NCBI RefSeq assembly: GCF_028748065.1
Contig: NZ_CP118166.1
Coordinates: forward strand, 2,805,501-2,869,500
Source of the DNA: Hyphococcus flavus
GTDB taxonomy: Bacteria > Pseudomonadota > Alphaproteobacteria > Caulobacterales > Parvularculaceae
Direction of reading: 5' to 3'
DNA: 64,000 bases
Shown here: positions 23,180-42,700 of the stretch, one piece after another
Layout of the letters: each line of letters starts with the position of its first letter
Numbering within the stretch: position 1 is the first letter of the stretch
Position numbers and translations under genes: made by a program
The notes under the pieces: model-generated
Databases searched by the model: none
What the model was told of the DNA's origin: nothing
Seen by the model: only the letters and a program-made list of their open reading frames with translations

Positions 23180-23608
23180 ATGGCGAAGAAAATTGCAGGC
23201 TACCTGAAGCTTCAGGTGCCGGCGGGTGCGGCGTCTCCGTCGCCTCCCATCGGTCCAGCGCTCGGCCAGCGCGGTCTTAACATCATGGAATTCTGCAAGG
23301 CGTTTAACGCCAAGACGCAGGAAATGGAAAAGGGGATGCCGATCCCCACGATCATCACGATCTTTTCCGATAAATCGTTCACGTTCGTTACAAAAACGCC
23401 GCCGGCGGCTTTCTATCTGAAAAAAGCCGCGAAGCTGCAAAAGGGCGGATCGACGCCCGGAAAAGCAGTCGCCGGTAAAGTGACAAAAAAACAGTGCCGT
23501 GAAATCGCGGAAGCGAAAATGGCCGACTTGAACGCCAACGACCTCGACGCTGCAACGAACATCATCATGGGTTCGGCTCGCGCCATGGGCCTTGAAGTGC
23601 AGGAGTAG
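23180..23608 (+). CDS. rplK: Large ribosomal subunit protein L11
   Basis: A 142-residue L11, which binds the 23S rRNA GTPase-centre region at the base of the L10-L12 stalk and contacts translation factors and RelA. It shows the Pro-rich switch region [20 protein letters not shown] at residues 12-31, [20 protein letters not shown], and the RNA-binding C-terminal domain ending [13 protein letters not shown]. The length is standard. rplA follows after 5 bases. Upstream there is non-coding DNA and then pdhC, not nusG. Confidence 0.98.
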
Positions 23609-23613
23609 GGACG

Positions 23614-24312
23614 ATGGCGAAATCAGGAAAAAGAATCCGTAACGCACGCGAAACCGTTGATCGTAAAAAGCTTCACTCCGTCGAAGAAGCGGTGAAGCTC
23701 GTAAAAGCTGGGGCCAATGCGAAATTCGATGAAACCATCGAAGTCGCAATGAACCTTGGTGTTGATCCGCGTCACGCAGATCAGATGGTGCGCGGTGTTG
23801 TTTCACTGCCCAACGGTACGGGACGCGATGTTCGCGTGGCTGTTTTTGCAAAAGACGCCAAAGCGGAAGAAGCCAAGAGCGCTGGCGCGGATATTGTCGG
23901 CGCGGAAGACCTGATGGAAAAAATTCAGGGCGGCTTCATGGACTTTGACCGCGTGATTGCAACGCCTGACATGATGGCGATTGTCGGCCGGCTCGGTAAG
24001 GTGCTGGGTCCCAAAGGCATGATGCCGAACCCGAAAGTGGGCACGGTCACGCCGAACGTTGCGCAGGCCGTAAAAGACTCCAAAGGCGGCGCCGTGGAAT
24101 TCCGCGTTGAAAAAGCGGGCATCATTCACGCTGGCGTCGGCAAGGCGAGCTTTGCAGAAAAAGCGATCGCGGAAAACGTTCAGGCGTTTATCGATGCAGT
24201 CACGAAAGCCAAACCGTCAGGCGCGAAAGGCACCTATATCAAGAAGATCGCGATTTCTTCGACCATGGGTCCTGGCGTCAAGATCGATACGTCTGGCAAC
24301 GCAAGCGCGTAA
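23614..24312 (+). CDS. rplA: Large ribosomal subunit protein L1
   Basis: A 232-residue L1, which forms the mobile L1 stalk that handles exit-site tRNA; in other bacteria it also represses its own L11-L1 mRNA. The signature [20 protein letters not shown] is near residues 126-145, and the two-domain order is intact. In most bacteria rplJ would follow directly. Here a terminator at 24337 and about 9 kb of unrelated genes intervene, so rplK-rplA behaves as its own short operon. Confidence 0.98.
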
Positions 24313-24336
24313 AGGTTTGTCTGAATATACTCTTAG

Positions 24337-24364
24337 AAAACGGCCCCCTACGGGGCCGTTTTTT
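24337..24364. terminator. Bidirectional intrinsic terminator between rplA and a convergent regulator gene
   Basis: An 11-bp perfect stem AAAACGGCCCC / GGGGCCGTTTT with loop CTAC is followed by TT on the plus strand and flanked by A on the other side. It can act in both directions between rplA (ends 24312) and the minus-strand gene ending at 24398. Confidence 0.88.
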
Positions 24365-24397
24365 ATTGCGATCTCTGCCTTGCAGATTATTGCTGAT

Positions 24398-25741
24398 TTA
24401 TGATTCCGCTTGCCTTTGCGTGCGTTTGAGGCGTGAGAGTTCAAATTCGATATAGGGTAAGGTGCGCCGCGCCCGGAGTACGTATTCACGTGCGGATTTT
24501 TCATCACCATCGGCCATAAGCGACAATGCCAATGCGTATTCCGCCTCTGGTAATGCGGGGGAATGGGAATTGGCGAGACGGGCTTCACTCAAGGCGAGTG
24601 CCGAAAAATGATCATCGCCCGTATGAATTGCATACTTTGCATACGCTTCAGCCAAGCGCGCTCTGGCAATAATGAAATTCGAATCCGCGCTGAGCGCATC
24701 TTGGAAATGGCGGGCCGCTTCAAGATAGTTTTCAGGTTCTATCGGTTTTTTGAGAGTCTCGACCCCATTAAGGTAGGTAGCGTATGCACTTCGAGAACTT
24801 GTTCCGCCCGCAATGGCTGTTGGCGATTGCAATTGTTCGAACTCTAAAATCAACAAACGCCCCATATGATTGATGATTCTTGACCAGTCTTTCTCTGGCG
24901 CATCCGCCGGCAGATTATATTCACCTGCCCAAAGGGCGGTTTCCCGTCTGGCGTCGGTGAGGGTAACGAACAGGCGATAATTGTTGTCAAATTCAGCAAT
25001 TTTCCATTCTATTAAAGCGCTTACATTCGATTGTCTGGAAAGCTCCAGCGGTCTGATTGATGACAGATGTGCTGAAGCCTGCCTGCCCATTACATCTGTA
25101 TTGTGATGAAGGCTCAACAGCGTCGTGAGCGCAGATTCCAGTTTGGATCCCAGAAACTGTATATTTTCAGCCTTGTCGGCGACTTCGATCGAAGAAACCA
25201 TGACGACAAGTTTTGCGTCCTCATTGCCATGGTCAGGTGTAAAAGGTTTGCCACCGATCACCAGCGCTAACACAAATAGAAAAATGATTGCTGCAAGCGC
25301 GTACCCGGCCGGCGGCGTGAAGAGACGCTTGAACTGGTCTCCCCAGCGCTCTCCCGGATTTTCATCAGCGCCGTCATTAGCGTTTTCATCGATGATGACC
25401 GCGCTGCTGGTCAGGGCGTAGCCCTCGCCAGCGATGGTTTCGATCAGGTTTTCTCCGATGCCGCCTTGCTCCAGCGATACGCGCAACATCCGGACCCGCT
25501 GTTTAACGGAATCAGGGCCCACATTTATGTCGCCCCACACGCGCGTTTGCAGGTCGTGCTTGGAAACGGTCTTCGGCGCAACCTCGGCCAGCGCGCGTAA
25601 AAGCCGGAAGGAAAGGGGCGGAAGGCTCAGTGATTGACCATTAGCGCTGACGGTTCGGTCAGCATCGTTGATGTGCAGCGTTGCCTGTTCATGGCCGTTC
25701 GGCGACGATTTCATCAAGCCTGATCCCTTCACGCCATTCAC
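24398..25741 (-). CDS. Membrane-anchored winged-helix transcriptional regulator (CadC/ToxR-like) with TPR-like C-terminus
   Basis: A 447-residue protein. Residues ~20-112 form an OmpR/PhoB-type winged helix (LSLPPLSFRLLRALAEVAPK, TVSKHDLQTRVWG, VKQRVRMLRVSLEQ, ETIAGEGYAL). One membrane helix follows near residue 145 (GYALAAIIFLFVLALVIGG), then a periplasmic part with a domain resembling the TolB-like sensor of this class and helical repeats (NYLEAARHFQDALSADSNF and others). This is the CadC-like design, a DNA-binding domain driven directly by a periplasmic sensor. The start may instead be ATG 25714. It is divergent from a secreted YD-repeat-like protein, its likeliest target (inference). Confidence 0.82.
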   Translation of the reverse strand: MNGVKGSGLMKSSPNGHEQATLHINDADRTVSANGQSLSLPPLSFRLLRALAEVAPKTVSKHDLQTRVWGDINVGPDSVKQRVRMLRVSLEQGGIGENLIETIAGEGYALTSSAVIIDENANDGADENPGERWGDQFKRLFTPPAGYALAAIIFLFVLALVIGGKPFTPDHGNEDAKLVVMVSSIEVADKAENIQFLGSKLESALTTLLSLHHNTDVMGRQASAHLSSIRPLELSRQSNVSALIEWKIAEFDNNYRLFVTLTDARRETALWAGEYNLPADAPEKDWSRIINHMGRLLILEFEQLQSPTAIAGGTSSRSAYATYLNGVETLKKPIEPENYLEAARHFQDALSADSNFIIARARLAEAYAKYAIHTGDDHFSALALSEARLANSHSPALPEAEYALALSLMADGDEKSAREYVLRARRTLPYIEFELSRLKRTQRQAES

Positions 25742-25837
25742 TGACGGTAAAAGAACTTTTTACCGGGTTTTACTCCTAAATCACAGGTCCCGCAGGCAAG
25801 TATCTCTCACGCAGGAATTAGCGCTGAGGAGATAAGG

Positions 25838-27259
25838 ATGCAGAATACCGCCTGGACGACAGTTTTCAGAGTTTTGGCCTTTAGAACCCGAGCCAGTTTC
25901 ATTGCTCTGTTTTCTTGTCTTGTCGCGTTTGTCGCCCCGGCGGCTGCAGCGGCGGATACACGGCTGTTGCCAGTTCGCGAAGATGCGGTTTTTGTCGATT
26001 ATTTTGCAACGCTTCCATTTCGAGAGACTCCGTTTGCGCCCCTGTCTGGCATTCACCGGTTAACAGAAGCAGACGCGGCGCAACGCAACCATTTTCGTTT
26101 CGAGTATGACCGCAAGGGCAGGCCAATTCGTGTCGCCTTCATGCTTGGCGATCTGGTCAGAGAGGTAAATGACGCTGCAAATTACTACTTCTACACGCCG
26201 GTTGTAGAAATCTCATACGGTCCATCGACTGAAACCAGAATATTTTTCGACAAACATGGCAACAGGATCAATGCAAACGGGGACGTCTTTAGAGAGCAAT
26301 ATACGCTCGATAAAAACGGATACAGAAAAGAGCTGACTTTCTATGATCATAAAGACGAGCCATCAGCAAATAGCTGGGGCGTCGTTAGGTATGAGTGGTC
26401 CATTCTTGATGATGGCGAGGTTATCGAAAAGCGTTTCGATACCGAAGGTAACCTGGCGCCTTTGAGAGCTAGCCTACCGTTCTACGAAACACGGCTGCAC
26501 TACGGATATGCGGGGTGGTTATCTGTGATGCGGAACTACGGGCTTGAGGGAAAACTCGTCCTGAACGAACTGAACGCCGCACAGGACATGCTCGAGTTCA
26601 ATGCCAATGGCGATATCATGTCGTGGAATGTGCTGGATGTGAATGGCGATCTTATCGATGGGAATTCACCTCGTATTGCACGCGGCATCATGGAAAAAAA
26701 TGAATTCGGATATGATATTTCAGAACGGTATGAAAATGCCGCCGGCGAGCGCGTGATGAATGCATATGGCCGAACATACAATAAAACGACTTATGACGAG
26801 TTCGGCAATTATCTGGAACGCGGCAACTATACACTTGATGGCTCTTCGCTATTGATCAATGAGCAAAGAGGATACGCTGGCTTTAGATATGAATACGATC
26901 CTTCCGGTCATAACAGGATTTCGCTTGAGTTATTCGATGAGAACAAAAAAGGCGTCGCAAACGCCACAAGCGGTTTTGCACGGGTGGAATACGATTATGA
27001 TCAACAGGGTAATATGATCGAAATTAGGTTTCTGACCACTGATGGCGTTTTGATGGATCGGAATGATACTGGGCTGGCGATTATTCAGCATGAATACGAC
27101 TCACGCGGCAGACGGATTGAAACGCGGTATCTGAATGCCAAAGGCGTTCTGACGAATGACGCACGAACTTCAATCGCCGTTACGAGACGCGAATATGGAG
27201 ATCATGGCGTTCCGACGCGGGTGACAAATTACAACGCTGATATGGAACTCGTTGAATAA
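25838..27259 (+). CDS. Secreted protein with YD-like repeats, function unknown
   Basis: A 473-residue protein with a signal peptide (ASFIALFSCLVAFVAPAAAA, cleavage near residue 38). The mature part is a chain of imperfect units like YDRKGRPIRVAF, YDEFGNYLERGNY, YDPSGHNRISLELFD, YDQQGNMIEIRFL and YDSRGRRIETRYLN, spaced about 40-50 residues apart. These resemble RHS/YD repeats, which form beta-strand wraps, but there is no toxin domain and no RHS core signature. It may bind carbohydrate or surface material (inference). GAGGAGATAAGG precedes ATG 25838. It is divergent from a CadC-like regulator. Confidence 0.65.
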   Translation: MQNTAWTTVFRVLAFRTRASFIALFSCLVAFVAPAAAAADTRLLPVREDAVFVDYFATLPFRETPFAPLSGIHRLTEADAAQRNHFRFEYDRKGRPIRVAFMLGDLVREVNDAANYYFYTPVVEISYGPSTETRIFFDKHGNRINANGDVFREQYTLDKNGYRKELTFYDHKDEPSANSWGVVRYEWSILDDGEVIEKRFDTEGNLAPLRASLPFYETRLHYGYAGWLSVMRNYGLEGKLVLNELNAAQDMLEFNANGDIMSWNVLDVNGDLIDGNSPRIARGIMEKNEFGYDISERYENAAGERVMNAYGRTYNKTTYDEFGNYLERGNYTLDGSSLLINEQRGYAGFRYEYDPSGHNRISLELFDENKKGVANATSGFARVEYDYDQQGNMIEIRFLTTDGVLMDRNDTGLAIIQHEYDSRGRRIETRYLNAKGVLTNDARTSIAVTRREYGDHGVPTRVTNYNADMELVE

Positions 27260-27288
27260 GATCGCCGCTGGCTTGGCAGCCTTCCTGT

Positions 27289-27320
27289 AATAAAACGGCC
27301 CCCTACCGGGTCGTTTTATT
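27289..27320. terminator. Bidirectional terminator between convergent genes
   Basis: A 13-bp stem AATAAAACGGCCC / GGGTCGTTTTATT with one wobble and a short loop is flanked by T-rich sequence. It separates the YD-repeat gene (ends 27259) from the minus-strand FMN dehydrogenase gene and overlaps the latter's stop codon. Confidence 0.85.
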
Positions 27321-28527
27321 ATTTGTACCGCTCACCAAATCTGCCGTTGGGCGTAGAGATAATGTTGTGCAGGTTCATGGCCCTTAGCGAAGTCACGCCG
27401 GATAATTGCATTGTCCTGACGAGTTCGCCTTGCAGGATATTCAATACTTGTTCAACGCCAGCCTGACCAAAGGCGCCAAGGCCCCAGACCTGAGGCCGCC
27501 CGACGGCGACCAGATCGGCGCCCATCGCCAGCGCTTTGAATATATCCGTGCCGCGGCGAATTCCGCCATCGACAAGAATTGGAACTTTCTTCTTCACGAT
27601 CGGCGCTATCACAGCCAGAGATTCCAGCGCGCTTCGGTTGCTCGCTTCCTGCCGCCCGCCATGATTTGAAACATAAAGTCCATCGACGCCGGCGCTTAGG
27701 GCCTGTTTCGCATCATCGACAGAAACGATGCCTTTAATCAGCACCTTCATAGAGGTGTTGTTTTTCAGCCAATCCACATATTCCCACGTAAGGGCGCTAT
27801 TCGGCGGCGCCAGAGGCTGTAGGTCTTCCGGGAAATTTCCAAACCGCAAAGGCTGTTCCGTTACGAGATCATACGACAGACGGGCTATGGTTTCACGCTT
27901 ACCGCCCACGGGCACGTCAACGGTGAGCGCGACGGCTGGGCAGCCAGCGTCCTCGACCTTTTTCAGAAGATCCGCAACAAAGCTTCGCGGCCATCGGGTG
28001 TAAAGTTGAAGCCAGGGTTTCGGATCAGCGTAGGACGCGATGTCTGCATAAGAAGCGCTGGAAAGATTTCCCGCCATTGTAAGGTGCTTCGTTTTGGCGG
28101 CAGCTTTTGCCGTAGCGATTTCCGCACCGTCATGAAAAAGGTTTTGAAGGCCAATCGGCGCCAGCATGATAGGAGACTGATAAGTCCGCCCGAACACCTC
28201 CACAGATGTATCAATGTTGGTGACATCAATAAGCCGATGCACCCTGATTTGCAGATCGTCGAAAATCTCCCTGTTGGCGCGCAGCGTTTTTTCATCGTCA
28301 GACCCTGTCATCAACCACGCCCACGGCGCCGGCCGGATTTTGGTCTTGGCAATTTCTCTTAGCTCGAACACATTCAACGTTTCATCAGCCGCTGTAATGG
28401 CGGCCAGATCAAACCCAGCCGCAACGTTTTCGGCGAATGCGGGCATGATATTGCCGATCGAAATCAATGGAGAAGCAGCGGCAAATTCCAGAAACCGTCT
28501 TCGTGATGTAGATAGAGGAGTGTTCAT
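27319..28527 (-). CDS. Tat-exported FMN-dependent alpha-hydroxy-acid dehydrogenase
   Basis: A 402-residue flavoprotein of the lactate/glycolate oxidase family. The N-terminus SRRRFLEFAAASPLIS is a twin-arginine signal, unusual because most relatives are cytoplasmic or inner-membrane associated. The body is the FMN TIM barrel: an ITAADETLNVFELREIAKTK opening, SPIMLAPIGLQNLFHDGAE, LTVDVPVGGKRE, the active site SNHGGRQEASNRSALESL with the catalytic His and Arg, and the phosphate-binding VDGGIRRGTDIFKALAMGAD. It oxidises 2-hydroxy acids such as L-lactate, passing electrons to oxygen, quinone or cytochrome; the acceptor here is unknown. It is a single gene beside the copper cluster. Confidence 0.87.
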   Translation of the reverse strand: MNTPLSTSRRRFLEFAAASPLISIGNIMPAFAENVAAGFDLAAITAADETLNVFELREIAKTKIRPAPWAWLMTGSDDEKTLRANREIFDDLQIRVHRLIDVTNIDTSVEVFGRTYQSPIMLAPIGLQNLFHDGAEIATAKAAAKTKHLTMAGNLSSASYADIASYADPKPWLQLYTRWPRSFVADLLKKVEDAGCPAVALTVDVPVGGKRETIARLSYDLVTEQPLRFGNFPEDLQPLAPPNSALTWEYVDWLKNNTSMKVLIKGIVSVDDAKQALSAGVDGLYVSNHGGRQEASNRSALESLAVIAPIVKKKVPILVDGGIRRGTDIFKALAMGADLVAVGRPQVWGLGAFGQAGVEQVLNILQGELVRTMQLSGVTSLRAMNLHNIISTPNGRFGERYK

Positions 28528-28694
28528 AATATTTTCCAGAATCGGCTATATAAAAAGCAACCCTGTGGCTGCCATACATATTATCTTATTCAAATATCAT
28601 TAAATAATCAAATAAGTAGTGTGCCGCTTTAGCGGTATGAACAAAATGCGGCAAGGCTCAAAATCTATATTGAGACGATCTACGCTAGCGCTAT

Positions 28695-29171
28695 CTAGTG
28701 ACACTTTTTCAGATCGCGGCTTAACAGCCACCAGTTTACCGGCCAGGCGGCGAGGAAGCCCGCTGGTACGGCGACAGCAATACCGATCCAGAACATCGGC
28801 GATAGAACTGATCCTGCCTGCATGCCGCCAACCATATAGTCGGCGCTGTTCATGGCGATTTCCATGACGCCGATAGATATCGCTTCGCCAACCCAGATCA
28901 GTTTAAGCGCCTGCCAAAATGTTTTCTTTTGTCTGCGCATGACTGGCAGCAAGCCGAGCGTGAAACCGGAGATGTAAGCGAGCACGGTCGCGAGAATAAT
29001 CGTCGGCCATACGCCGATCCCCAGCGTGACGCCGATGGCGAGGCCTGTAACCTCGCCGATGACACAACCCGTTAGGCAATGAAGCGTGGCCTGCGCCGAT
29101 GTGACTATCGGGTTCGCGCCGCTATGATGATGAGTGTGATGCTCTTTGTTTTGACATTCACTATGCGCCAT
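28695..29171 (-). CDS. DUF4396 membrane protein
   Basis: A 158-residue protein with a His-rich N-terminus (NKEHHTHHHSGANP) and four predicted membrane helices, beginning ATLHCLTGCVIGEVTGLAIG. This opening, with its Cys-x3-Cys-like pair and Gly-Glu, is the mark of DUF4396, a family often found with copper-handling genes. The function is unproven; the His stretch and the neighbours point to metal transport or delivery (inference). ATG 29171 is preceded by GGAGG; a longer frame upstream of it is not supported. It is the last gene of a copA-copB-DUF4396 unit, with 10 bases between it and copB. Confidence 0.78.
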   Translation of the reverse strand: MAHSECQNKEHHTHHHSGANPIVTSAQATLHCLTGCVIGEVTGLAIGVTLGIGVWPTIILATVLAYISGFTLGLLPVMRRQKKTFWQALKLIWVGEAISIGVMEIAMNSADYMVGGMQAGSVLSPMFWIGIAVAVPAGFLAAWPVNWWLLSRDLKKCH

Positions 29172-29181
29172 TTGAACCTCC

Positions 29182-29934
29182 TTAAAACCAGGTTCTAAAA
29201 CCGGCGACAAAGGAAACGCTTCCCGGTTCGTCACCGTCAATCCGTGCAAAGTCAGCACTATCGCCGACGGCGCGTTCCCATGAGACGCCGACATAAGGTG
29301 CGAATTGACGGCTGATTTCGTATCTGAGGCGCGCGCCCGTTTCGACGGTCGATAATCCTGCGCCAATTCCATACTCAGCTATGTCTTGTGCGGCGAAGTT
29401 CAACTCCGCGCGAGGCTGAAGAATAAGTCGCTGTGTGATTAACAGTTCGTATTCCGCTTCGACGCGCGCTTCGACATCGCCGTCATCGGAAACAAACAGC
29501 GCCGCATCGATTTCAAACAAGTAGGGCAATAGCCCTTGCGCCCCGACAACTGCGAACGTGCGGTCATTGCCCGGCGCGAAATCATGTCGGATGCCGGCCT
29601 GAAGATCGAAAAAGTCGCCAACGGCGCGGCTATAAAGCGCCTGGACTTCCGCCTCTTCGAATTCGTCGGCGTCAAAGTCAAATTCGCCCTCGGTCTTAAC
29701 CCACAAACGATTGATATCGCCGCCATACCAGCCTTGAGCGTCCCACAGAAAAACCGGGTCGCCTTCGTTGCTACGATACTCAAGCCGCTCGCCTTCGACA
29801 TACCAGAATGTAGCACCGCCATGGTGTTGTTGAAGATGCTTGCGCATCTCGCTCATGCCATGTGCTGTGTCGTCGGCGAGCGCGCCCAACGGCGCTGCGA
29901 GAATCAGTGTTGTAAGCAGTAGTAGCTTTTTCAT
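29182..29934 (-). CDS. copB: Copper resistance protein B (outer membrane)
   Basis: A 250-residue CopB/PcoB protein with signal peptide LLLLTTLILAAPLGALA. The mature part begins with a His/Met stretch, then FWYVEGERLEYRSNEGDP and WDAQGWYGGDINRLWVKTEG, which are typical CopB phrases. The remainder is alternating beta strands ending in an aromatic residue (FVAGFRTWF), as in outer-membrane beta barrels. In studied systems CopB works with the multicopper oxidase CopA in periplasmic copper defence. Its ATG overlaps the copA stop (ATGA at 29931-29934), so translation is coupled. The Met-rich N-terminal repeats of longer CopB proteins are absent here. Confidence 0.93.
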   Translation of the reverse strand: MKKLLLLTTLILAAPLGALADDTAHGMSEMRKHLQQHHGGATFWYVEGERLEYRSNEGDPVFLWDAQGWYGGDINRLWVKTEGEFDFDADEFEEAEVQALYSRAVGDFFDLQAGIRHDFAPGNDRTFAVVGAQGLLPYLFEIDAALFVSDDGDVEARVEAEYELLITQRLILQPRAELNFAAQDIAEYGIGAGLSTVETGARLRYEISRQFAPYVGVSWERAVGDSADFARIDGDEPGSVSFVAGFRTWF

Positions 29935-31841
29935 GACGCGCTATCCTGATGCATTTCATGACCGCTATGATCCATTTGATGATCTTGATGATGTGCCCGC
30001 GGCTTGACTGACACGACCTGCATCATGCCCGCCATCATGTGATAGAGCAGGTGACAGTGAAACGCCCAGTCGCCGACGGCGTCAGCAGTGACATCGACAG
30101 ATAATTTCTCGCCGGGCTTGACGATGATCGTATGTTTGCGCGCTTTTGTATGATCGTGATGGGCTTGTTTCACGACATCAAAAAACATCCCGTGAAGGTG
30201 GATGGGGTGAGACATCATCGTGTCGTTGACCAGCGTCAGCCTTAGTCGTTCGCCCTCATGAAACGTGATCGCGTCTTCAACTTCGGAAAACTTTTTCCCG
30301 TCGAAGGACCACATATACCGCTCCATATTGCCGGTCAGATGCAGTTCGAGTTCGCGTTCCGGGTCGTGCATGTCCGGGTTCATGTCGAGAGCGCTCAAAT
30401 CCGCATAGGTCAAAACCCGGTGCGGCTGATTTTCGAGGCCGAGACCCGGTTCATTGAGGCGGTCCGAAGGCGTTTCCGCAAGGCCGACAACGCCCGGTCC
30501 GGTCGGGTGGTTGTGTTCCTGCGCGGCGGACATGCCGCCAGTCATATTTGCAGAGTCATGCTTATCATGCCCGGATATTGAATTGTGATCGCCATGAGGT
30601 GATGCGCTGGAACTCGTTGCGCGGTCATCTGTATTCATATTGTGGCCGCTGTGATCCATTCTTGCATGTTGCTCATGCATAGACGCTTCAGGCTCGTGAC
30701 CGCCGCCATGACTTCCATGCGACATGGCCATGTCGCGCATGGTCAGCGTCGGGCGTTCGCGCAACGGTGGCACGGCTGCAACCATCCCCATGCGCGGCGT
30801 TAGGATTGCGCGGGCGTAGCCCGAACGGTCGATCGACTCCGCCATGATCGTAAAGGCTTTGTCCTGATGCGGATGAACGATGACGTCGTAGGTTTCAGCA
30901 ACGCCGATCTGTAGCTCGTCGGTCTCGACCGGCTTTACGTTCAGACCGTCTGCCTGGACGACGCTCATGGGTAGTTCCGGCAAGCGGAAATTGAAGATCG
31001 TCATGGCTGATGCGTTGATAATGCGCAGGCGCACGCGTTCGCCCGGTGAGAAGAGGCCTGTCCAGTTGTCGCCGGGCCCGTGGCCGTTGATCAAATAGGT
31101 GTATGTTGCGCCAGTAACGTCCGCGATATCAGCCGGGTCCATGCGCATGCGGCCCCACATGGCGCGTTCGGACAGCGCGTCCCCGAAACCGTCGTTTCCG
31201 GCGTCCCGGAAAAAATCGACAAGCGTGCGTTTCTGGAAATTATAATTTTCGGAATGTTTTTTCAGCTTGGCGAAAAGCCGGTTCGGATTTTCGAACGTCC
31301 AGTCGGAAAGAACAATCACATATTCCCGATCATATTGAACGGGATCGGCGTCTTTCGGTTCAATGATGATCGGCCCGTAATGGCCTGACTGTTCCTGCAG
31401 ACCTGAGTGCGAGTGATACCAATACGTGCCCGCTTGTTTGAGTGGAAATCTGTAGGTGAATGTCTCGCCGGGCTTAACGCCAGCGAAACCGGATAGGCCA
31501 GGCACGCCGTCCATTTCTGGCGGCAGCAAGATGCCGTGCCAGTGAATGGATGTGTCCTCATCGAGCCCATTCGAAAGATGCAACGTAACGTCATCGCCCT
31601 CGCGCCAGCGCAAAAGCGGGGCAGGAAGCTGGCCATTAATAGTGATGGCGCGTCCGCTTTTTCCATCGATGATAGATTTGGAGCGATCGGCTCGCAGATG
31701 AAACTCAGTCCCGGAAAGCGCGCTTATGCCGTACATGTTGTTGGCCGCGCCTGTCCTGGCCCAGGCAGGCAGTTGAAGTTGTGCGGCAGCAGCGCTTCCC
31801 AGAACGGCTGCGCCATTTAAAAATCGCCGGCGGTTCAACAT
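29931..31841 (-). CDS. copA: Multicopper oxidase CopA (copper resistance, Tat-exported)
   Basis: A 636-residue periplasmic multicopper oxidase of the CopA/PcoA type, which binds copper and oxidises Cu(I). A Tat signal (LNRRRFLNGAAVLGSAAAAQ) is followed by cupredoxin domain 1 with SIHWHGILLP and TYWYHSHSGLQEQSG, domain 2, then a His/Met-rich insert near residues 400-480 (MSHGSHGGGHEPEASMHEQH and similar). The C-terminal cupredoxin has HPIHLHGMFFDVV and the type-1 site FHCHLLYHMMAGMMQ. I start at ATG 31841, which has GAGG upstream; earlier in-frame starts at 31880 and 31943 fall in the promoter or operator. copB and the DUF4396 gene follow. Confidence 0.95.
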   Translation of the reverse strand: MLNRRRFLNGAAVLGSAAAAQLQLPAWARTGAANNMYGISALSGTEFHLRADRSKSIIDGKSGRAITINGQLPAPLLRWREGDDVTLHLSNGLDEDTSIHWHGILLPPEMDGVPGLSGFAGVKPGETFTYRFPLKQAGTYWYHSHSGLQEQSGHYGPIIIEPKDADPVQYDREYVIVLSDWTFENPNRLFAKLKKHSENYNFQKRTLVDFFRDAGNDGFGDALSERAMWGRMRMDPADIADVTGATYTYLINGHGPGDNWTGLFSPGERVRLRIINASAMTIFNFRLPELPMSVVQADGLNVKPVETDELQIGVAETYDVIVHPHQDKAFTIMAESIDRSGYARAILTPRMGMVAAVPPLRERPTLTMRDMAMSHGSHGGGHEPEASMHEQHARMDHSGHNMNTDDRATSSSASPHGDHNSISGHDKHDSANMTGGMSAAQEHNHPTGPGVVGLAETPSDRLNEPGLGLENQPHRVLTYADLSALDMNPDMHDPERELELHLTGNMERYMWSFDGKKFSEVEDAITFHEGERLRLTLVNDTMMSHPIHLHGMFFDVVKQAHHDHTKARKHTIIVKPGEKLSVDVTADAVGDWAFHCHLLYHMMAGMMQVVSVKPRAHHQDHQMDHSGHEMHQDSAS

Positions 31842-31875
31842 TTCAAACCTCAAAGCTTCACATTTGGTTTGGGAA

Positions 31876-31904
31876 GGCATACTATACCCCCCTAGGGTAT
31901 TCAA
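31876..31904 (-). promoter_or_regulatory. copA promoter with CsoR-type operator in the spacer
   Basis: On the minus strand TTGAAT (-35, at 31899-31904) and TATGCC (-10, at 31876-31881) are 17 bases apart. Within the spacer, 31884-31900 reads ATACCC-CCCTA-GGGTAT, a perfect 6-base inverted repeat with a C/G tract. This is the layout of operators bound by CsoR/RcnR-family repressors. The divergent gene at 31919 encodes such a repressor. The promoter assignment is by inspection only. Confidence 0.72.
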
Positions 31905-31918
31905 GCGGCGAGAATGAG

Positions 31919-32194
31919 ATGGCTCATTGCGACAAAACTTCAACGGTCAGGCGGCTAAACCGCATAGAAGGCCAGGTACGCGGCGTCGCGCGTATGGTCG
32001 AGGACGAACGCTATTGCATCGACATTCTGCATCAGGTGCAGGCCGTCAAAGCCGCGCTTTCAAAAGTGGAAGACGCCATCCTCTCCGACCATGCCGCCCA
32101 TTGCGTAGCCGAAGCGATCGCCTCTGGCGACGAGGCTGATCAACGTCAAAAATTCAGCGAGCTTGTAGATCTCTTTGGCAAAGTGAAGCGCTAG
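31919..32194 (+). CDS. csoR: CsoR-type copper-sensing transcriptional repressor
   Basis: A 91-residue all-helical repressor of the CsoR/RcnR family (DUF156) with RRLNRIEGQVRGVARMVED at residues 11-29. The Cu(I) ligand set of CsoR is present: Cys33, His58 and Cys62, spaced 25 and 4 apart as in the characterised CsoR triad. An extra His3-Cys4 at the N-terminus recalls the nickel/cobalt sensor RcnR, so metal choice is not fully settled. Cu(I) binding would release the operator between it and copA. The ATG at 31919 starts just after that operator. The facing permease gene ends 3 bases beyond its stop. Confidence 0.88.
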   Translation: MAHCDKTSTVRRLNRIEGQVRGVARMVEDERYCIDILHQVQAVKAALSKVEDAILSDHAAHCVAEAIASGDEADQRQKFSELVDLFGKVKR

Positions 32195-32197
32195 CCC

Positions 32198-33409
32198 TCA
32201 CCCTAAGACAATCGGAACCAATAGGCCGCCTGCAAGCCAGAGAAACGCGGCCCAAGCAAACAAGCGCAAGATCCTGTCGCTCAGCGTCCCCTTATCGCTG
32301 GTCATGAAACCGGCGGTGCGCCATTTCCAGACTAGAAAAGCGCCGCTCATCGTCAAAAACCCAGCGTTCAGAAACAACGTATAATCGACTTTGAAAAATT
32401 CCCTGTCTGTTACTGAATTGGCGCTGGCGGAATCAGGCAGAAGGCCGGCGAAAGAAAACCCGAAATGCAAGATGACGGCGCACGCGACGAGAATGACCAG
32501 AAAAACGCCGAGAATATAAAGCGCCATCTTCCACCCGTAATATTGCGCCTGAATGCGCAGCACCGGCAGAACGACAAGGTCGCTGAAAATAAACGCCATT
32601 ACGCCGGCGAAGCTGACGCCGTTTGAAAACAGGACTGCGGCGAGGGGAATGTTGCCCATCGATCCGATAAACGTGAAAAACGCCGCTATTGGCCCAACAA
32701 TTGTTTGCGCCAAAATTTCCCAGAACGCCGGATTTTCTGATCCTGAGCCGATAAAGAGCATTTGAAAAAACGCTTTAGGCACGAACGCAGCGATAGCGCC
32801 CGCGACTGTGAAGCCGACCGTCACGTCTTTCCAGACCATTCGCCATTCCACGACGTAGCGGTTGGAGACCTTGCGCCAGCCCTCGCGTGAGCGGATCAGT
32901 TGTTTCCAGTCTGGAAGCTCTTCGGTTTCATCATCGGCTTCCTGTTCGCGCGCATGCTCTCTCGCTTTTTCGATCAGGTTTTGAGGCCGGGTGAAGCGCA
33001 CGACAAGCCACATAAGCAAGATCAGAAGAATCCCGCCAAGATACTCGCCGATAACGAATTGCCAGCCGAGGAAGATGGCGATGACAATGCCAAGCTCGAC
33101 TACAAGATTGGTGGAGGCAAGAAGGAAGGCGAGGGCGGGCACGATCCCGGCGCCCTTGGTGAAAAGCGATCGGGTCGTGGCCAGCGCGGCGAAGGAGCAT
33201 GAGCTTGAAACAAAACCAAAGAAAGTTCCGATAGCGACGCTTTTGGGCCCCGCTTCGCCCATGCTTTTCTGCATGCGTTCGCGGGTGATAAAGACCTGGA
33301 TCATGCTGGAAATGAGATAACCAAGCCCGAAAGCCCAGAAAGCCATCCAGAAAAGGCCGACCGTTGTTCTGGCGGCCTCATGCCATAGGTTCACAAAATC
33401 GCCGCTCAT
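32198..33409 (-). CDS. Permease of the UPF0718/ArsP-like family
   Basis: A 403-residue protein with about nine membrane helices in two similar halves separated by a charged cytoplasmic loop (EKAREHAREQEADDETEELP, residues about 148-170). The first half has FFGFVSSSCSFAALATTRSLF and FLLASTNLVVELG; the second has FIGSMGNIPLAAVLFSNGVSF. This is the predicted-permease family that includes the organoarsenical exporter ArsP. The substrate here is unknown; the Cys in the SSSCS motif and the copper neighbourhood allow metal or metalloid export (inference). It is convergent with csoR and just upstream of the rplJ leader on the opposite strand. Confidence 0.82.
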   Translation of the reverse strand: MSGDFVNLWHEAARTTVGLFWMAFWAFGLGYLISSMIQVFITRERMQKSMGEAGPKSVAIGTFFGFVSSSCSFAALATTRSLFTKGAGIVPALAFLLASTNLVVELGIVIAIFLGWQFVIGEYLGGILLILLMWLVVRFTRPQNLIEKAREHAREQEADDETEELPDWKQLIRSREGWRKVSNRYVVEWRMVWKDVTVGFTVAGAIAAFVPKAFFQMLFIGSGSENPAFWEILAQTIVGPIAAFFTFIGSMGNIPLAAVLFSNGVSFAGVMAFIFSDLVVLPVLRIQAQYYGWKMALYILGVFLVILVACAVILHFGFSFAGLLPDSASANSVTDREFFKVDYTLFLNAGFLTMSGAFLVWKWRTAGFMTSDKGTLSDRILRLFAWAAFLWLAGGLLVPIVLG

Positions 33410-33519
33410 AGCTCATGTAACACCCGTGAGCAGAAGCCATTGCAATATTTGGTAACGGTCAAAACAGGGAAAGGCCTTGCATTCTGAAAAAGTCCGGTTA
33501 GAAGCACGCCGTCGCCTTA

Positions 33520-33794
33520 ATTGGCGATACCTGTCCGAGACTGCGGGTGTAGGTTTCCTACTTAATCTCCCGCATAGACAGAGGGAAAAGGATCAGCCGG
33601 ATTTCTTCCGGTCAAGTCCGTTGGACCTTCTGGGGCAGGCTCCGAGCGTTCGTCGCGGGAGCCTTTTTTGGTTCTCATGACAACGCGCTCAGTTGAAGCC
33701 CCTCGCGGGAAACCGCGGGGATTATCTGGGGCAGGGCTCAGTTTCCTAAGCGAAACGGCGTCTTGCCTCGCCATGAACCGAAGGGACTGCCAAC
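33520..33794 (+). promoter_or_regulatory. rplJ 5' leader RNA (L10-binding leader type) with a terminator-like hairpin
   Basis: The 385-bp gap before rplJ has no gene. From about 33530 it folds: GACTGCGGG pairs with CCCGCATAGACAG across a short TAGGTTTCCTA hairpin, the arrangement of the conserved L10 leader bound by L10-L12 to repress translation. At 33637-33669 AGGCTCC / GGAGCCT plus TTTTTT forms an intrinsic terminator inside the leader. The phrase TCTGGGGCAGG occurs twice (near 33629 and 33726). AAGGGA lies before the rplJ start. I see no convincing promoter at 33410-33520. Confidence 0.68.
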
Positions 33795-34307
33795 ATGGAC
33801 AGAACCCAAAAGGCGGAAATGGTTGAATGGATCGGCGGCGTGTTCGATGCGAACACGGTTGTCGTGGTGGCGAACGGGGGCCTTTCAGTCTCTGAATTCG
33901 AATCCTTGCGCGGCGAGCTGCGCGAGGCCGGCGCTTCCATGAAAATCGTCAAGAATCGTCTCGCCAAGATCGCGATCTCCGGAAAAACTGCAGAGAAACT
34001 CTCAGACCTTTTCCAGGGACCGACCGCCATCGCGTTCTCTGAAGACCCGGTCGCAGCGGCGAAAGCCGTCAAGAAGTTCGCCAAGGACAATGAAAAGCTC
34101 AAAATCCTCGGCGGCGCCATGGGCGAAGAAATCATGGACGAGAAGGGAGTGGAGGCGCTTGCCGCCATGCCGTCTCGTGATGAGCTCATCGCTTCTATTG
34201 TCGCGACCATCACAGCTCCGGCAGCGAATATCGCCAGCGCCATCGGCGCCCCGGCGTCGAACATCGCTGGAATTCTGGAGACCCTTGAGAACCGTGAAGC
34301 GGCGTAA
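33795..34307 (+). CDS. rplJ: Large ribosomal subunit protein L10
   Basis: A 170-residue L10, the stalk base that anchors L7/L12 dimers through its C-terminal helix and autoregulates the rplJ-rplL mRNA. The start MDRTQKAEMVEWIGGVF, the FESLRGELREAGASMKIVKN region and GPTAIAFSEDPVAAAK are typical. The alanine-rich C-terminal helix (ASAIGAPASNIAGILETLEN) is the L12-binding part. It follows a structured leader and the minus-strand permease gene instead of rplA. rplL lies 50 bases downstream in the same transcript. Confidence 0.98.
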   Translation: MDRTQKAEMVEWIGGVFDANTVVVVANGGLSVSEFESLRGELREAGASMKIVKNRLAKIAISGKTAEKLSDLFQGPTAIAFSEDPVAAAKAVKKFAKDNEKLKILGGAMGEEIMDEKGVEALAAMPSRDELIASIVATITAPAANIASAIGAPASNIAGILETLENREAA

Positions 34308-34357
34308 ACCAAAATCCGAATTTTTGAATTGAACCAACGAACTAGGAACTAAAGACA

Positions 34358-34735
34358 ATGGCTGATCTTAAAAAACTTGCTGAAGAGCTTGTCGGCCTGA
34401 CGCTTCTTGAAGCGGCTGAGCTGAAAAACATTCTTAAAGACGAATACGGCATCGAACCGGCTGCGGGCGCTGTTGCGGTTGCAGCGGCTCCGGGCGGCGG
34501 CGGCGAAGCGGCTGCTGAAGAGAAAGACGAATTCGACGTCATTCTCGTTGACGCAGGCGACAAGAAAATCAACGTGATCAAAGAAGTTCGCGCGATTACG
34601 GGCCTTGGCCTCAAAGAAGCCAAAGACCTCGTCGAAGCTGGCGGCAAAGCAGTCAAGGAAGCTGCGCCGAAAGCAGAAGCCGAAGAAATCAAGAAAAAGC
34701 TGGAAGACGCCGGCGCGAAAGTCGAACTCAAGTAG
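34358..34735 (+). CDS. rplL: Large ribosomal subunit protein L7/L12
   Basis: A 125-residue stalk protein that recruits and stimulates the translational GTPases. The N-terminal dimerization helix ([20 protein letters not shown]), the flexible Ala/Gly hinge around residues 38-52, and the C-terminal factor-binding domain ([20 protein letters not shown], then [11 protein letters not shown]) are all present. Four copies or more are normally made per ribosome from this gene. A strong terminator follows at 34761, partly separating it from rpoBC. Confidence 0.98.
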
Positions 34736-34760
34736 TTACGGCTCTGATTTCATTCATGAA

Positions 34761-34792
34761 AGCCGTCGCGGGCTTGCTCGCGGCGGCTTTTT
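34761..34792 (+). terminator. Terminator after rplL
   Basis: AGCCGTCGCG and CGCGGCGGCT (one wobble) form a stem around GGCTTGCT, followed by TTTTTG. It should reduce read-through from rplJL into rpoBC. A second, weaker hairpin (CTGGCGC / GCGCCAG, then CGGCTTTTTG) is at about 34809-34846. Confidence 0.82.
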
Positions 34793-34905
34793 GTTGGGCC
34801 GCGTCAGGCCTGGCGCTTTTGTCTGCATAGGCGCCAGCGGCTTTTTGTGATAATGTGACACCGTCCCGGAGATAAAATTGGGGCAAAATTTTTACAATCG
34901 GGGGG

Positions 34906-34934
34906 TTGCAGCCGCTTGCCGGCGCGCCTAATAA
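34906..34934 (+). promoter_or_regulatory. Predicted rpoB promoter
   Basis: TTGCAG (34906-34911) and TAATAA (34929-34934) are separated by exactly 17 bases, a good housekeeping-sigma match. It lies after the rplL terminators. It would give an approximately 200-base rpoB leader, which contains a further hairpin, CCGCCGACGG / CCGCCGGCGG with TTTTC, at about 34947-34973. It supports independent transcription of rpoBC. Confidence 0.68.
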
Positions 34935-35143
34935 ACACGTTCGCCGCCGACGGGAGTTCCGCCGGCGGTTTTCAGGCTTTGCGGCGACGTGCTTCGGTTA
35001 ATCGAGATTTGAAAATTTAGTCATCCGCGACCCGCGGTCGAACCTGGTCCGGCCTGCGGTCGTTTTTGCGCACTCATTTACCCTGTTTGAAGCGGCGGGG
35101 AGCTGACGTGTCGCTGAGATGGCTTCCGTTTATGAGGATAAAG

Positions 35144-39223
<4,080 letters not shown>

Positions 39224-39227
39224 GAGA

Positions 39228-39740
39228 ATGCCTATCCGTCTGTCTCAGTTTCTGCCGATGTTCGTTGCTTATGTAGCAATGACGGTGTCTGGATATGCAG
39301 ATGGGCTTGAACAAATTGTAGAAGTGCAATGCGTAGAGGATGCGGATTATTTCACTGCGACGGGGAAGATGGTCTCAGCGGATTATTTTCAGACTGATGC
39401 TGCGCAAATGGAAGAAGTCTTGGCTGGTCATGGAGTCTTTACATTGAGCAAGCTCGCTTCATCGCCAGTTACATGCCGTGTGGGCGAGCACTTGGTGAAG
39501 GTTCATGCCGAGATTGGTCCCTATCGGACGCAGGGTCGCTGCATTACAGAAGTTAGCGGCAATATTTTTGTTGAACTTGATGATGAAAAGATTGCTGTCG
39601 CCAAATTACCCAGCGCTTGTCTTGATCCCGGTTGGAGTGAGATCGAGATAAACAAGCGTTGGATTAAGGTCACGGAGTTTGCTGGAGGCAATGGCGAGCC
39701 TCTGTCGAGCGAGTTCCAGTTTAAGCATTTTGCTGAGTAG
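39228..39740 (+). CDS. Small secreted protein of unknown function between rpoB and rpoC
   Basis: A 170-residue protein that I do not recognise. Residues 1-24 look like a signal peptide (LSQFLPMFVAYVAMTVSGYA). The mature part is mostly beta-prone, slightly acidic, with four Cys (VEVQCVED, VTCRVGEH, GRCITEVS, SACLDPG) that could form two disulfides. The start ATG 39228 is 4 bases after the rpoB stop, and rpoC begins 39 bases after its end, so it must ride on the rpoBC transcript. Its codon use is more AT-rich than that of rpoB or rpoC, hinting at insertion. The frame is open and has a clean signal peptide, which argues that it is a real gene. Confidence 0.7.
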   Translation: MPIRLSQFLPMFVAYVAMTVSGYADGLEQIVEVQCVEDADYFTATGKMVSADYFQTDAAQMEEVLAGHGVFTLSKLASSPVTCRVGEHLVKVHAEIGPYRTQGRCITEVSGNIFVELDDEKIAVAKLPSACLDPGWSEIEINKRWIKVTEFAGGNGEPLSSEFQFKHFAE

Positions 39741-39779
39741 GAGCGCGTCAAGCGCGCTTCCATCGAAGGAGCAGACTTC

Positions 39780-42700
39780 ATGTCACAGGAACTTCTGAAC
39801 GTATTTAATCCGACTGCCCCCGCGCAGACGTTCAACAAGATCCGTATTTCGTTAGCGAGCCCGGAGAAAATTCTCTCCTGGTCGTTTGGCGAAATCAAAA
39901 AGCCTGAAACCATCAACTACCGCACCTTCAAGCCGGAGCGTGACGGCCTGTTCTGCGCGCGCATCTTCGGTCCGGTAAAGGACTACGAATGCCTCTGCGG
40001 CAAATACAAGCGCATGAAGTACAAAGGCATCGTGTGTGAAAAGTGCGGTGTCGAAGTCACCCTGACGAAAGTTCGCCGCGAGCGCATGGGCCATATCGAA
40101 CTTGCAGCGCCTTGCGCGCATATTTGGTTCCTGAAGTCGCTGCCGTCGCGCATCTCGCTGATGCTCGACATGACGCTGAAAGACCTCGAGCGCGTTCTTT
40201 ATTTTGAACAGTACATTGTGATTGAGCCGGGCCTCACCGCGCTGACGCCGAACCAGCTTCTGACGGAAGAAGAATATCTGCAGGCGCAGGAAGAATACGG
40301 CGAGGATTCCTTCACCGCCGGAATCGGCGCCGAAGCGATCCGCGAAATCCTGTCGAATATCGACATGGAAGCAGAAGCTGAAAAGCTGCGCGTTGAGATC
40401 GCCGAGTCGACGTCGGAACTCAAAACCAAGAAATACGCAAAACGCCTGAAACTGATCACGGCTTTCCTTGAGTCCGGCAACCGCCCGGAATGGATGATCA
40501 TGACGGTTATCCCGGTGATCCCGCCGGAATTGCGCCCGCTTGTGCCGCTCGATGGCGGCCGCTTCGCGACGTCTGACCTCAACGATCTTTATCGACGGGT
40601 TATCAACCGCAACAACCGCCTGAAACGCCTGATCGAACTGCGTGCGCCGGACATTATCGTGCGCAACGAAAAGCGCATGCTGCAGGAATCTGTCGATGCG
40701 CTGTTCGATAACGGCCGCCGCGGCCGCGTCATCACCGGCACCAACAAGCGTCCGCTGAAATCGCTGTCTGACATGCTGAAAGGCAAGCAGGGCCGCTTCC
40801 GCCAGAACCTTCTCGGCAAACGCGTCGATTATTCCGGCCGTTCGGTGATCGTTGTCGGTCCGGAACTGAAACTGCATGAATGCGGCCTGCCGAAGAAGAT
40901 GGCGCTCGAACTCTTCAAGCCGTTCATCTATTCGCGCCTCGACGCTAAGGGTCTCTCGGCCACGGTCAAACAGGCGAAAAAGCTTGTCGAAAAAGAACGC
41001 CCTGAAGTCTGGGATATTCTCGACGAGGTGATCCGCGAGCACCCTGTTATGTTGAACCGGGCGCCGACGCTCCACCGTCTTGGCATTCAGGCGTTCGAGC
41101 CGAAACTCATTGAAGGCAAGGCGATCCAGCTTCACCCGCTGGTCTGTACCGCGTTCAACGCTGACTTCGACGGCGACCAGATGGCGGTGCACGTGCCGCT
41201 GTCGCTTGAAGCGCAGCTCGAAGCGCGCGTCCTGATGATGTCGACCAACAATATTCTTTCGCCGGCCAACGGCAAGCCGATCATTGTGCCGTCGCAGGAT
41301 ATCGTTCTCGGTCTTTACTACATCACCATGGATAAAGAGGGCGAGCCGGGCGAGGGCAAGGTTTTCGGAACGCTGGAAGAAATCGAACACGCGCTCGACG
41401 CCGGCGTCGTCACGCTGCACTCCAAAATCAAGGCGCGCTGGAACACGGTTGACGAACACGGCGACCCGATCAGCGAGGTCGTTGATACAACGCCGGGCCG
41501 GATGAAAGTGGCGCAGGTTCTGCCGCGTAACTCTGATGTGCCGTTTTCCGTGGTCAATCAGCTCCTGACCAAAAAAACCATTCAGGGCCTCATCGATATC
41601 GTTTATCGTCACTGCGGTCAGAAGAAGACAGTTATCTTTGCTGACCACATCATGGATCTTGGTTTCAAGGAAGCCTGTAAGGCCGGCATCTCTTTCGGCA
41701 AGGACGACGTTGTCATTCCTGAAGCCAAGCGCAAGCTGGTTGAGGAAACCCGTGCGCAGGTGTCAGAATTCGAACAGCAATATGCTGAAGGTCTGATCAC
41801 GCGCGGTGAGAAGTACAACAAAGTCATCGACGCCTGGGCGAAGTGTACGGACAAAATCGCCGATGCGATGATGGATGAAATCTCCGAAACGAAATTCGAT
41901 CCGGAGACAAAACGCCAGCTAGAGCCGAACTCCATCTACATGATGTCCCACTCAGGGGCTCGAGGCTCGCCCACGCAGATGCGTCAGCTCGGCGCCATGC
42001 GCGGCCTGATGGCGAAGCCTTCCGGCGAAATCATCGAAACGCCGATCACGTCGAACTTTAAAGAAGGCCTCACGGTTCTTGAATACTTCAACTCGACCCA
42101 CGGAGCGCGGAAAGGTCTTGCCGACACCGCGTTGAAGACGGCGAACTCAGGTTACCTGACGCGCCGTCTGGTTGACGTGGCGCAGGATTGCATCGTCCGC
42201 GAAATCGATTGCGGCACCACCAACGGCATCACGCTTGAGGCGGTTGTTCGCTCCGGTGAAATTGTCGTGCCGTTGTCACAGATCATTCTTGGCCGGACAT
42301 TGCTGGAAGACATCACTCATCCGGAAACGGGCGAAGTTCTCGGCAAGGCCAATGACGAGGTAGATGAAGCGCAAGCCGAAGAGATCGAAGGCGCTGGGCT
42401 GCAGAAGGTCCGCGTACGTTCAGTCCTGACGTGCGATTCCAAAGTCGGCGTTTGTGCGAAATGCTACGGTCGTGACCTTGCTCGCGGGTGTCCGGTTAAT
42501 ATCGGCGAATCTGTCGGCGTCATCGCGGCGCAGTCGATCGGCGAACCGGGTACGCAGCTTACCATGCGTACGTTCCACGTTGGCGGCACGGCGCAGGTCG
42601 GCGACACGTCGTTCATCGAGGCGAGCCACGAGGGTACAGTCAAGCTCGATGGTGGCAATGTGCTGAAAAACTCCGATGGCGATCTGGTCGTCATGGGACG

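Follow-up and report, generated by a model that had tools for sequence, protein, structure and literature searches.

In Hyphococcus flavus, the interval that separates the rplA terminator from the rplJ promoter is probably a long-lived accessory-gene slot of the genus, filled here in two layers rather than by a single insertion. The genus Hyphococcus (synonym Marinicaulis) comprises marine bacteria of the Parvularculaceae. The gene order in question joins rplKA to rplJL-rpoBC, a block which in the passages of Ream et al. considered here ranks first for conservation among 38 proteobacterial blocks and splits mostly between these two halves (Ream et al., 2015; PMC4481853).

Gene content of the locus

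The window is the whole 64,000-nucleotide stretch that was analysed, taken from a genome assembled as a single contig and 99.9% complete. The initial annotation described the order rplK-rplA-rplJ-rplL-rpoB-rpoC as strongly conserved and as broken here by eight genes between rplA and rplJ, and both the break and the eight genes were confirmed at that place. Its gene labels were borne out by Pfam and NCBIfam (Trans_reg_C, FMN_dh, DUF4396, CopB, TIGR01480 copper_res_A, Trns_repr_metal/RicR-CsoR and ArsP_1 permease). The label of a YD-repeat-like secreted protein was kept, on a weak NCBIfam match, a partial model and Foldseek. The features are as follows, with strand in brackets (a point where none is assigned).

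23180..24312 (+) rplK-rplA, left fixed slot edge
24334..24365 (+) intrinsic terminator after rplA, slot boundary; A-run and T-run, fold -22.9 kcal/mol, z -5.4
24368..28695 (.) segment private to the H. flavus genome, recent insertion; absent from the sister G027
24398..25741 (-) CadC-like membrane regulator (Trans_reg_C); Pfam/NCBIfam
25838..27259 (+) secreted YD/Rhs-type repeat protein, 473 aa; NCBIfam, model, Foldseek
27292..27317 (.) second terminator-like hairpin, between the convergent YD and FMN genes
27319..28527 (-) Tat-signal FMN-dependent 2-hydroxyacid oxidase/dehydrogenase; PF01070, E 1e-103
28695..29171 (-) DUF4396 membrane protein, copper core; also in G027 and G007; refined start 29171
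29182..29934 (-) copB, outer-membrane copper protein; PF05275
29931..31841 (-) copA, PcoA/CopA-type multicopper oxidase with Tat signal; TIGR01480; refined start 31841
31883..31900 (+) putative CsoR operator TATACCC-N5-GGGTAT, between copA and csoR; from sequence conservation
31919..32194 (+) csoR, copper-sensing repressor, C-x24-H-x3-C; Pfam/NCBIfam; refined start 31919
32198..33409 (-) ArsP_1-family permease; G022 has one at this place, 80% identical
33477..33794 (+) promoter and structured leader of rplJ, fixed slot edge on the right; conserved across the genus
33795..44021 (+) rplJ-rplL-rpoB-rpoC

The rplA-rplJ junction across the genus and class

Among 28 genomes of the genus, compared at one genome per species, 24 yielded both rplA and rplJ. 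The two genes share a contig and strand in 14 and lie on different contigs in 10; in two of the latter, G015 and G023, they are clearly separated, and in the other eight they are on separate contigs. All 14 joined genomes have a gap of 2,282-16,347 bp. In Alphaproteobacteria outside the order, the gap is at most 700 bp in 98 of 103 genomes among the best-scoring matches listed. Gene calling places an intervening gene at this junction in 13 of the 14, and the fourteenth, G017, holds a helicase within a gap of 3,081 bp. At the neighbouring junctions of the genus, intervening genes were found in 0/23 (rplK-rplA), 0/21 (rplJ-rplL), 0/20 (rplL-rpoB), 1/9 (rpoB-rpoC) and 2/17 (pdhC-rplK) cases, with rplK and rplA no more than 72 bp apart at all 23 loci that have both. 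Across the genus the slot contains about 40 ORF families, versus 0-2 in five neighbouring junctions.

The contents differ between species, with recognised copper genes (cop or PCuAC) in nine of the 14 joined genomes and unrelated genes in five. It had been proposed to compare gene order in relatives, where the same arrangement everywhere would speak for an ancient order; the split is indeed common to all measurable congeners, but its contents are not. A gene order treated as nearly fixed opens freely in one lineage, at one exact joint.

Edges of the slot

The edges had been drawn at the terminator of rplA and the leader of rplJ, and the ends of the alignments agree: those to G003 and G027 stop at 24364 and 24367, and on the rplJ side those to relatives begin at 33495-33523. 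The terminator itself stood up to folding, while its claimed bidirectionality is a potential only, given by the A-run and T-run. On the other side, rplJ has its own conserved promoter-like sequence and leader; a search of Rfam for known RNAs at both edges returned two weak matches only, below threshold. Because a strong terminator closes rplKA and rplJ carries its own start signals, genes placed between them need not disrupt either unit.

Outside the genus, a strong rplA terminator accompanies 9 of 14 open versus 7 of 51 closed junctions (Fisher p 4e-4, kinship ignored). The terminator may have made the rplA-rplJ junction permissive. Strong terminators are also found, then, at some closed junctions.

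The private segment

The initial annotation saw one 9-kb accessory insertion, and this did not hold, since six other species have the copper core in this slot too and only 4,328 bp are private. In the sister species G027 the sequence resumes at the same base, giving a base-precise breakpoint with the segment missing. Against the 27 congeners, the segment has matches of only 43-69 nt, and its GC content is 50.6% versus 55.4% for the window. As the alignments indicate, the 4,328-bp segment entered once the lineage had parted from its sister species, and its place is exactly between the tail of the terminator and the stop of DUF4396.

Its cargo consists of the CadC-like regulator, the secreted YD-repeat protein and the FMN oxidase. 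The regulator is divergent from the YD gene, an arrangement also seen in G393 and G492. The NCBIfam match behind the YD label is weak (E 6.7e-5); the predicted model has a confident run of beta-hairpins spaced by about 33 residues and is poor elsewhere, and Foldseek matched it to Rhs/YD shells. The protein occurs in 10 of 249 relatives and, besides H. flavus, approaches its full length in G393 (52%) and G492 (45%) only. For the FMN enzyme, which carries a Tat signal, the closest solved structures are L-lactate and glycolate oxidases.

A terminator-like hairpin is found at 24340 and again at 27295, one copy on each side of the CadC-YD pair, and the 64 kb contain no other match. The claim that no direct repeat is visible at the edges stands for the edges of the insert, which have no convincing repeat, but the hairpin is repeated. 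We read the pair as a shared type of terminator rather than an insertion scar; the right edge of the insert, at 28695, lies away from the second hairpin, which counts against a duplicated terminator as the scar. A plasmid origin of the insert was rejected, as only copA and copB match plasmids (~70%) and the YD protein matches none, and so was a phage origin, matches to PHROGs being weak and generic only.

The copper module and its proposed regulation

The copB-copA/csoR genes occupy the slot in seven species in identical orientation, the six besides H. flavus being G022, G025, G007, G021, G016 and G027. CopA scores 830.6 bits against TIGR01480 (cut-off 478.95) and has three Cu-oxidase domains (PF07732, PF00394 and PF07731). 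In the CopA tree, the seven slot copies and one relocated copy in G014 form one clade (93/98). The junctions recur in independent assemblies, as copA-csoR-permease-rplJ in G022 and as rplA-DUF4396-copB-copA in G027.

All seven slot copies of CsoR have the C-H-C copper ligands with x24/x3 spacing, and the best solved relative is 4m1p (CsoR). The putative box lies in the divergent promoter and is invariant at 16 of 18 positions across the seven copies; exact sites number only three in the genome, all at copper loci, and the slot ATPase of G025, G021 and G016 also has a CsoR box. In this layout csoR and copA diverge from the common box, with copA running together with copB and DUF4396 and the permease following. 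Under copper, CsoR would leave the box, derepressing copA-copB and csoR. Periplasmic CopA would then oxidise Cu(I) and CopB would handle copper at the outer membrane, as is usual for these families.

Route and history of the cargo

That a single recent 9-kb block arrived between rplA and rplJ in this lineage is highly improbable. The first 4.3 kb fit such an event, being recent, private and of lower GC, but the copper part has host GC and the same place and orientation in the six other species, and G000 and G022 align unbroken from copA through the permease to rplL; the G022 and G027 alignments rule out one 9-kb insertion. Misassembly or a binning error at 24.35 or 33.4 kb is scarcely credible: breaks near the slot are seen in many congeners, which are draft MAGs, but the single contig and the matching joins in independent assemblies rule it out here, and G023, G015 and G001 have identical new neighbours to either side of the break. 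A site-specific mobile element (integrase, transposon or plasmid) could explain the rapid turnover of content, and relatives of copA and copB are common on plasmids at ~70% DNA identity. We nevertheless consider it very unlikely, as no integrase, transposase or recombinase was found among the slot genes scanned, in keeping with the initial annotation, ARAGORN found no tRNA in the window, the insert edges bear no convincing direct repeat and the YD protein has no plasmid match.

It is quite possible, if short of probable, that the copper module was passed several times from congener to congener into the slot, through crossovers in the flanking rplKA and rplJL-rpoBC genes, and not inherited in place. 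Its presence is patchy: least-change counting needs 4 changes if gains are free, and a single gain followed by loss needs 8 losses. Sister species also differ in slot order, with the Cu-ATPase lying to the left of copB in G022 but to the right of csoR in G025, and the rplK+rplA tree groups G017 with G016/G021, unlike the species tree built from gyrB+dnaK. The trees of the left and right flanks are partly incongruent and in places depart from the species tree; they were built from short proteins, with weak, quickly computed support. However, the CopA pairs G000-G027, G022-G025 and G016-G021 agree with the gyrB+dnaK tree, and no pair of distant species shares a near-identical CopA. CopA identity tracks core identity loosely (rho 0.56, over non-independent pairs); G016 and G021 are 95% alike in the core and 80% in CopA.

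On the preferred reading of a long-lived slot, cargo would come in with no integrase involved, either through double crossover within the conserved flanks or through illegitimate joining where the terminator lies. The analysis turned up no direct sign of homologous recombination. The earlier suggestion that the insertion is old or came by homologous exchange is divided in its age part, the copper core being long resident and the 4,328 bp recent.

Comparison with known systems

We regard the slot as a further case of a core-flanked hotspot, free of integrases among the slot genes scanned, at a junction whose splitting is already documented. As in the hotspots between core genes described in the parts of Oliveira et al. 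(2017; PMC5635113) used here, the core-gene flanks are fixed, accessory families are many, turnover is high and recognisable mobile-element genes are lacking, here among those scanned. The same two core flanks that define such hotspots were found on one contig and strand in 14 of the 24 genomes. However, those hotspots were counted genome-wide within species, whereas the Hyphococcus slot is seen across species of a genus, with 10 of 24 genomes unjoined. Their definition asks for more transferred genes than a threshold (T95%) set over all intervals of the genome, and raised homologous recombination in the core genes alongside is common but not essential. Replacement flexible genomic islands, in the portions of Lopez-Perez et al. 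(2014; PMC4033161) drawn on, are alternative clusters with functions alike at a single location; they encode exposed surface structures and have near-identical recent swaps and SNP peaks at their borders, whereas the present slot is known from one genome per species. The split junction of Ream et al. (2015; PMC4481853) is the same, but recurrent cargo, copper genes and a link to the terminator are absent from the passages considered. The csoR-cueA divergon of Bradyrhizobium liaoningense (PMC5057107, as excerpted) likewise has a divergent csoR, a box TATACCC-N5-GGGTATA and the ligands C-x24-H-x3-C; its target is an efflux ATPase, whereas the divergent target in Hyphococcus is the oxidase gene copA with copB.

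Implications

A wider, tentative and somewhat doubtful proposal is that acquisition of a strong terminator downstream of rplA frees rplKA from its coupling to rplJL-rpoBC and creates an open docking site in the most conserved proteobacterial block. In Hyphococcus/Marinicaulis this site would now be a copper-homeostasis island keeping diverse copper genes (copAB-csoR, Cu-ATPase and PCuAC), other cargo being transient. The joint would open after the two halves have come to carry stop and start signals of their own, which offers a testable rule for operon breakage, the terminator coming before the cargo. An odd block in one genome may also stack two histories, in this case that of a long-resident copper module and that of a young insert private to the genome.

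Gene content and edges of the rplA-rplJ slot

The initial annotation of Hyphococcus flavus (G000) described eight genes in the slot between rplA and rplJ, which is borne out by open reading frames (ORFs) and profile searches, the basis of each of the following:

24398-25741, minus strand, CadC-like regulator
25838-27259, plus strand, YD-like secreted protein
27319-28527, minus strand, Tat-signal FMN enzyme
28695-29171, minus strand, DUF4396
29182-29934, minus strand, copB
29931-31841, minus strand, copA
31919-32194, plus strand, csoR
32198-33409, minus strand, ArsP_1 permease

The proposed edges, the rplA terminator and the rplJ leader, are likewise where alignments to relatives end and restart. 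On the left, alignments end at the terminator (24364-24367 in G003 and in the sister species, G027), which has a strong fold, or at the end of rplA, and on the right they resume at 33495-33523, within the rplJ promoter-leader. Across the genus the leader (33477-33794, plus strand) shows strong conservation and structure: RNAalifold predicts 53 pairs, 14 of which have both bases changed in at least one sequence. No Rfam family matches it up to E 1, and it may be an alphaproteobacterial L10 leader that has not been catalogued. A single 3.47-Mb contig holds the whole window (genome completeness 99.88%).

An open junction across the family

Among 28 genomes of Hyphococcus (synonym Marinicaulis), rplA was found in 27, rplJ in 24 and both in 24. 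The two genes share a contig in 14 of these 24, with gaps of 2,282 to 16,347 bp, and lie on different contigs in 10. In G015 and G023 rplKA and rplJL-rpoBC are truly apart, because the contigs run far beyond both genes; G001 has the same new neighbours beside its separated halves. Outside the genus, eight genomes of the family (Parvularculaceae) were examined and the junction is open in all five that could be resolved: three have gaps of 1,253, 1,398 and 4,561 bp, and in two the halves lie at a distance from each other. Of 24 genomes from the remainder of the order, 16 have a gap below 700 bp, six a wider one and two the genes on separate contigs. Complete separation is also seen in G029 (contig C18), where 283 kb lie between rplKA and rplJL-rpoBC. 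For the class, 337 genomes were searched; among the matches listed, 103 genomes outside the order had both places, with a gap of at most 700 bp in 98, a wider one in four and a split in one (median gap 341 over the 102 joined genomes). An open junction thus characterises the family and turns up sporadically elsewhere; it is not a recent event in G000.

Within the genus, an intervening gene occurs at rplA|rplJ in 13/14 loci by gene calling (14/14 counting the G017 helicase), at rplK|rplA in 0/23, at rplJ|rplL in 0/21, at rplL|rpoB in 0/20, at pdhC|rplK in 2/17 and at rpoB|rpoC in 1/9. This last is G000 itself, and its ORF has no Pfam match and was not seen in the eight other genus loci holding both flanks. 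That ORF and a gene further along the window are:

39228-39740, plus strand, 170-aa ORF with signal peptide, between rpoB and rpoC
44169-45416, plus strand, glycosyltransferase group 1 gene, between rpoC and rpsL

The supercluster is broken at a second point: rplK has pdhC (window 21191-23180) as its upstream neighbour in the genus, rather than secE-nusG. Several relatives in the order have secE/nusG-like genes upstream of rplK.

Opening may be related to termination after rplA. In named genomes outside the genus, a simple hairpin-plus-T scan downstream of rplA found a strong terminator at 9/14 open versus 7/51 closed junctions (Fisher p 4e-4, kinship ignored), and a looser scan at 10/14 versus 18/51 (p 0.03). 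At a control position within rplA the count was 2/80. Closed junctions with a terminator occur within the order (G044 and G048), as expected if the terminator precedes opening.

Variable contents and a private insert

About 40 ORF families occupy the slot across the genus, including an RhlE-like RNA helicase, amidohydrolases, an amidase, an MMPL transporter, a carbamoyltransferase, a molybdopterin enzyme, PCuAC and a Cu-ATPase. The reported lack of an integrase holds among the slot ORFs scanned (part of the total), with no integrase or transposase found. Recognised copper genes (cop or PCuAC) are in the slot in 9/14 joined genus genomes; G016 and G027, which are fragmented, have cop genes there as well.

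The alignment of G000 to G027 covers 22919-24367 and picks up again at 28696, from the G027 base where it had stopped, so the intervening 4,328 bp are private to G000. The GC content of this insert, 50.6%, is below that of the window (55.4%) and of the copper part (55.2%), and its only matches in the 27 other genus genomes are 43-69 nt long. No clear entry scar was seen at its edges. The first two genes of the insert form a divergent pair that occurs in three genomes, each from a different genus:

window 24398-27259; L331 4904-9137; L332 4828-8930, divergent CadC-like/YD-repeat pair

The copies in G393, of the same family, and G492, of the same order, lie away from rplA/rplJ, and after each comes a beta-lactamase-fold serine hydrolase, which does not adjoin the pair in G000. 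The pair resembles a small, mobile module with a regulatory role. The hairpin ACGGCCC-N6-GGGCCGT occurs only twice in the 64 kb, at 24340 and 27295, flanking the pair.

History and regulation of the copper core

Seven genomes carry the copper core in the slot, always in one orientation: G000, G022, G025, G007, G021, G016 and G027. Their slot CopAs and one G014 copy group as a clade (93/98) that excludes every other CopA of the genus. Neither slot flank adjoins the G014 copy (L301, 20-kb contig C1). A slot-type gene, c16, with 77% identity, also lies away from rplA/rplJ in G013 (C18:86424-87497); both appear as if relocated. G000 has a second copper cluster at about 388-399 kb (csoR, a CusF-like gene, copA, copB and a Cu-ATPase).

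The core could have been resident since the genus ancestor, which requires eight losses, or could have been handed between congeners, with four changes if gains are free. Sister pairs in the CopA tree agree with the gyrB+dnaK tree, CopA identity tracks core identity loosely (rho 0.56, 21 non-independent pairs), and the G000-G022 alignment is unbroken from 30720 via csoR and the permease to 34735. The left and right flank trees are too weak to favour either history.

A CsoR box separates the divergent genes:

31883-31900, 18-bp CsoR box, TATACCCCCCTAGGGTAT, between csoR and copA

In the seven slot copies 16/18 columns are invariant. The whole G000 genome has three exact matches, all at copper loci, and 984 kb of loci have 16 hits, all at copper genes, with 0.2 expected (mononucleotide shuffles). 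The slot CsoR shares the box and the C-x24-H-x3-C ligands with a tested Bradyrhizobium repressor (PMC5057107). Because of this match and the conservation and specificity of the box, it is well supported at the sequence level that copper would derepress copA-copB and csoR, which diverge from the box. For DUF4396 and the permease, a role in the module is suggested by context.

Relation to known work

Among 38 proteobacterial blocks, rplKAJL-rpoBC is reported to be the most conserved, with most of its splits lying between rplKA and rplJL-rpoBC (Ream et al., 2015; PMC4481853). Hotspots flanked by core genes have also been described, most of which lack integrases (Oliveira et al., 2017; PMC5635113). 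No paper on the rplA-rplJ slot was found within limited open-access coverage. The slot fits both the split site and the hotspots described in these papers.
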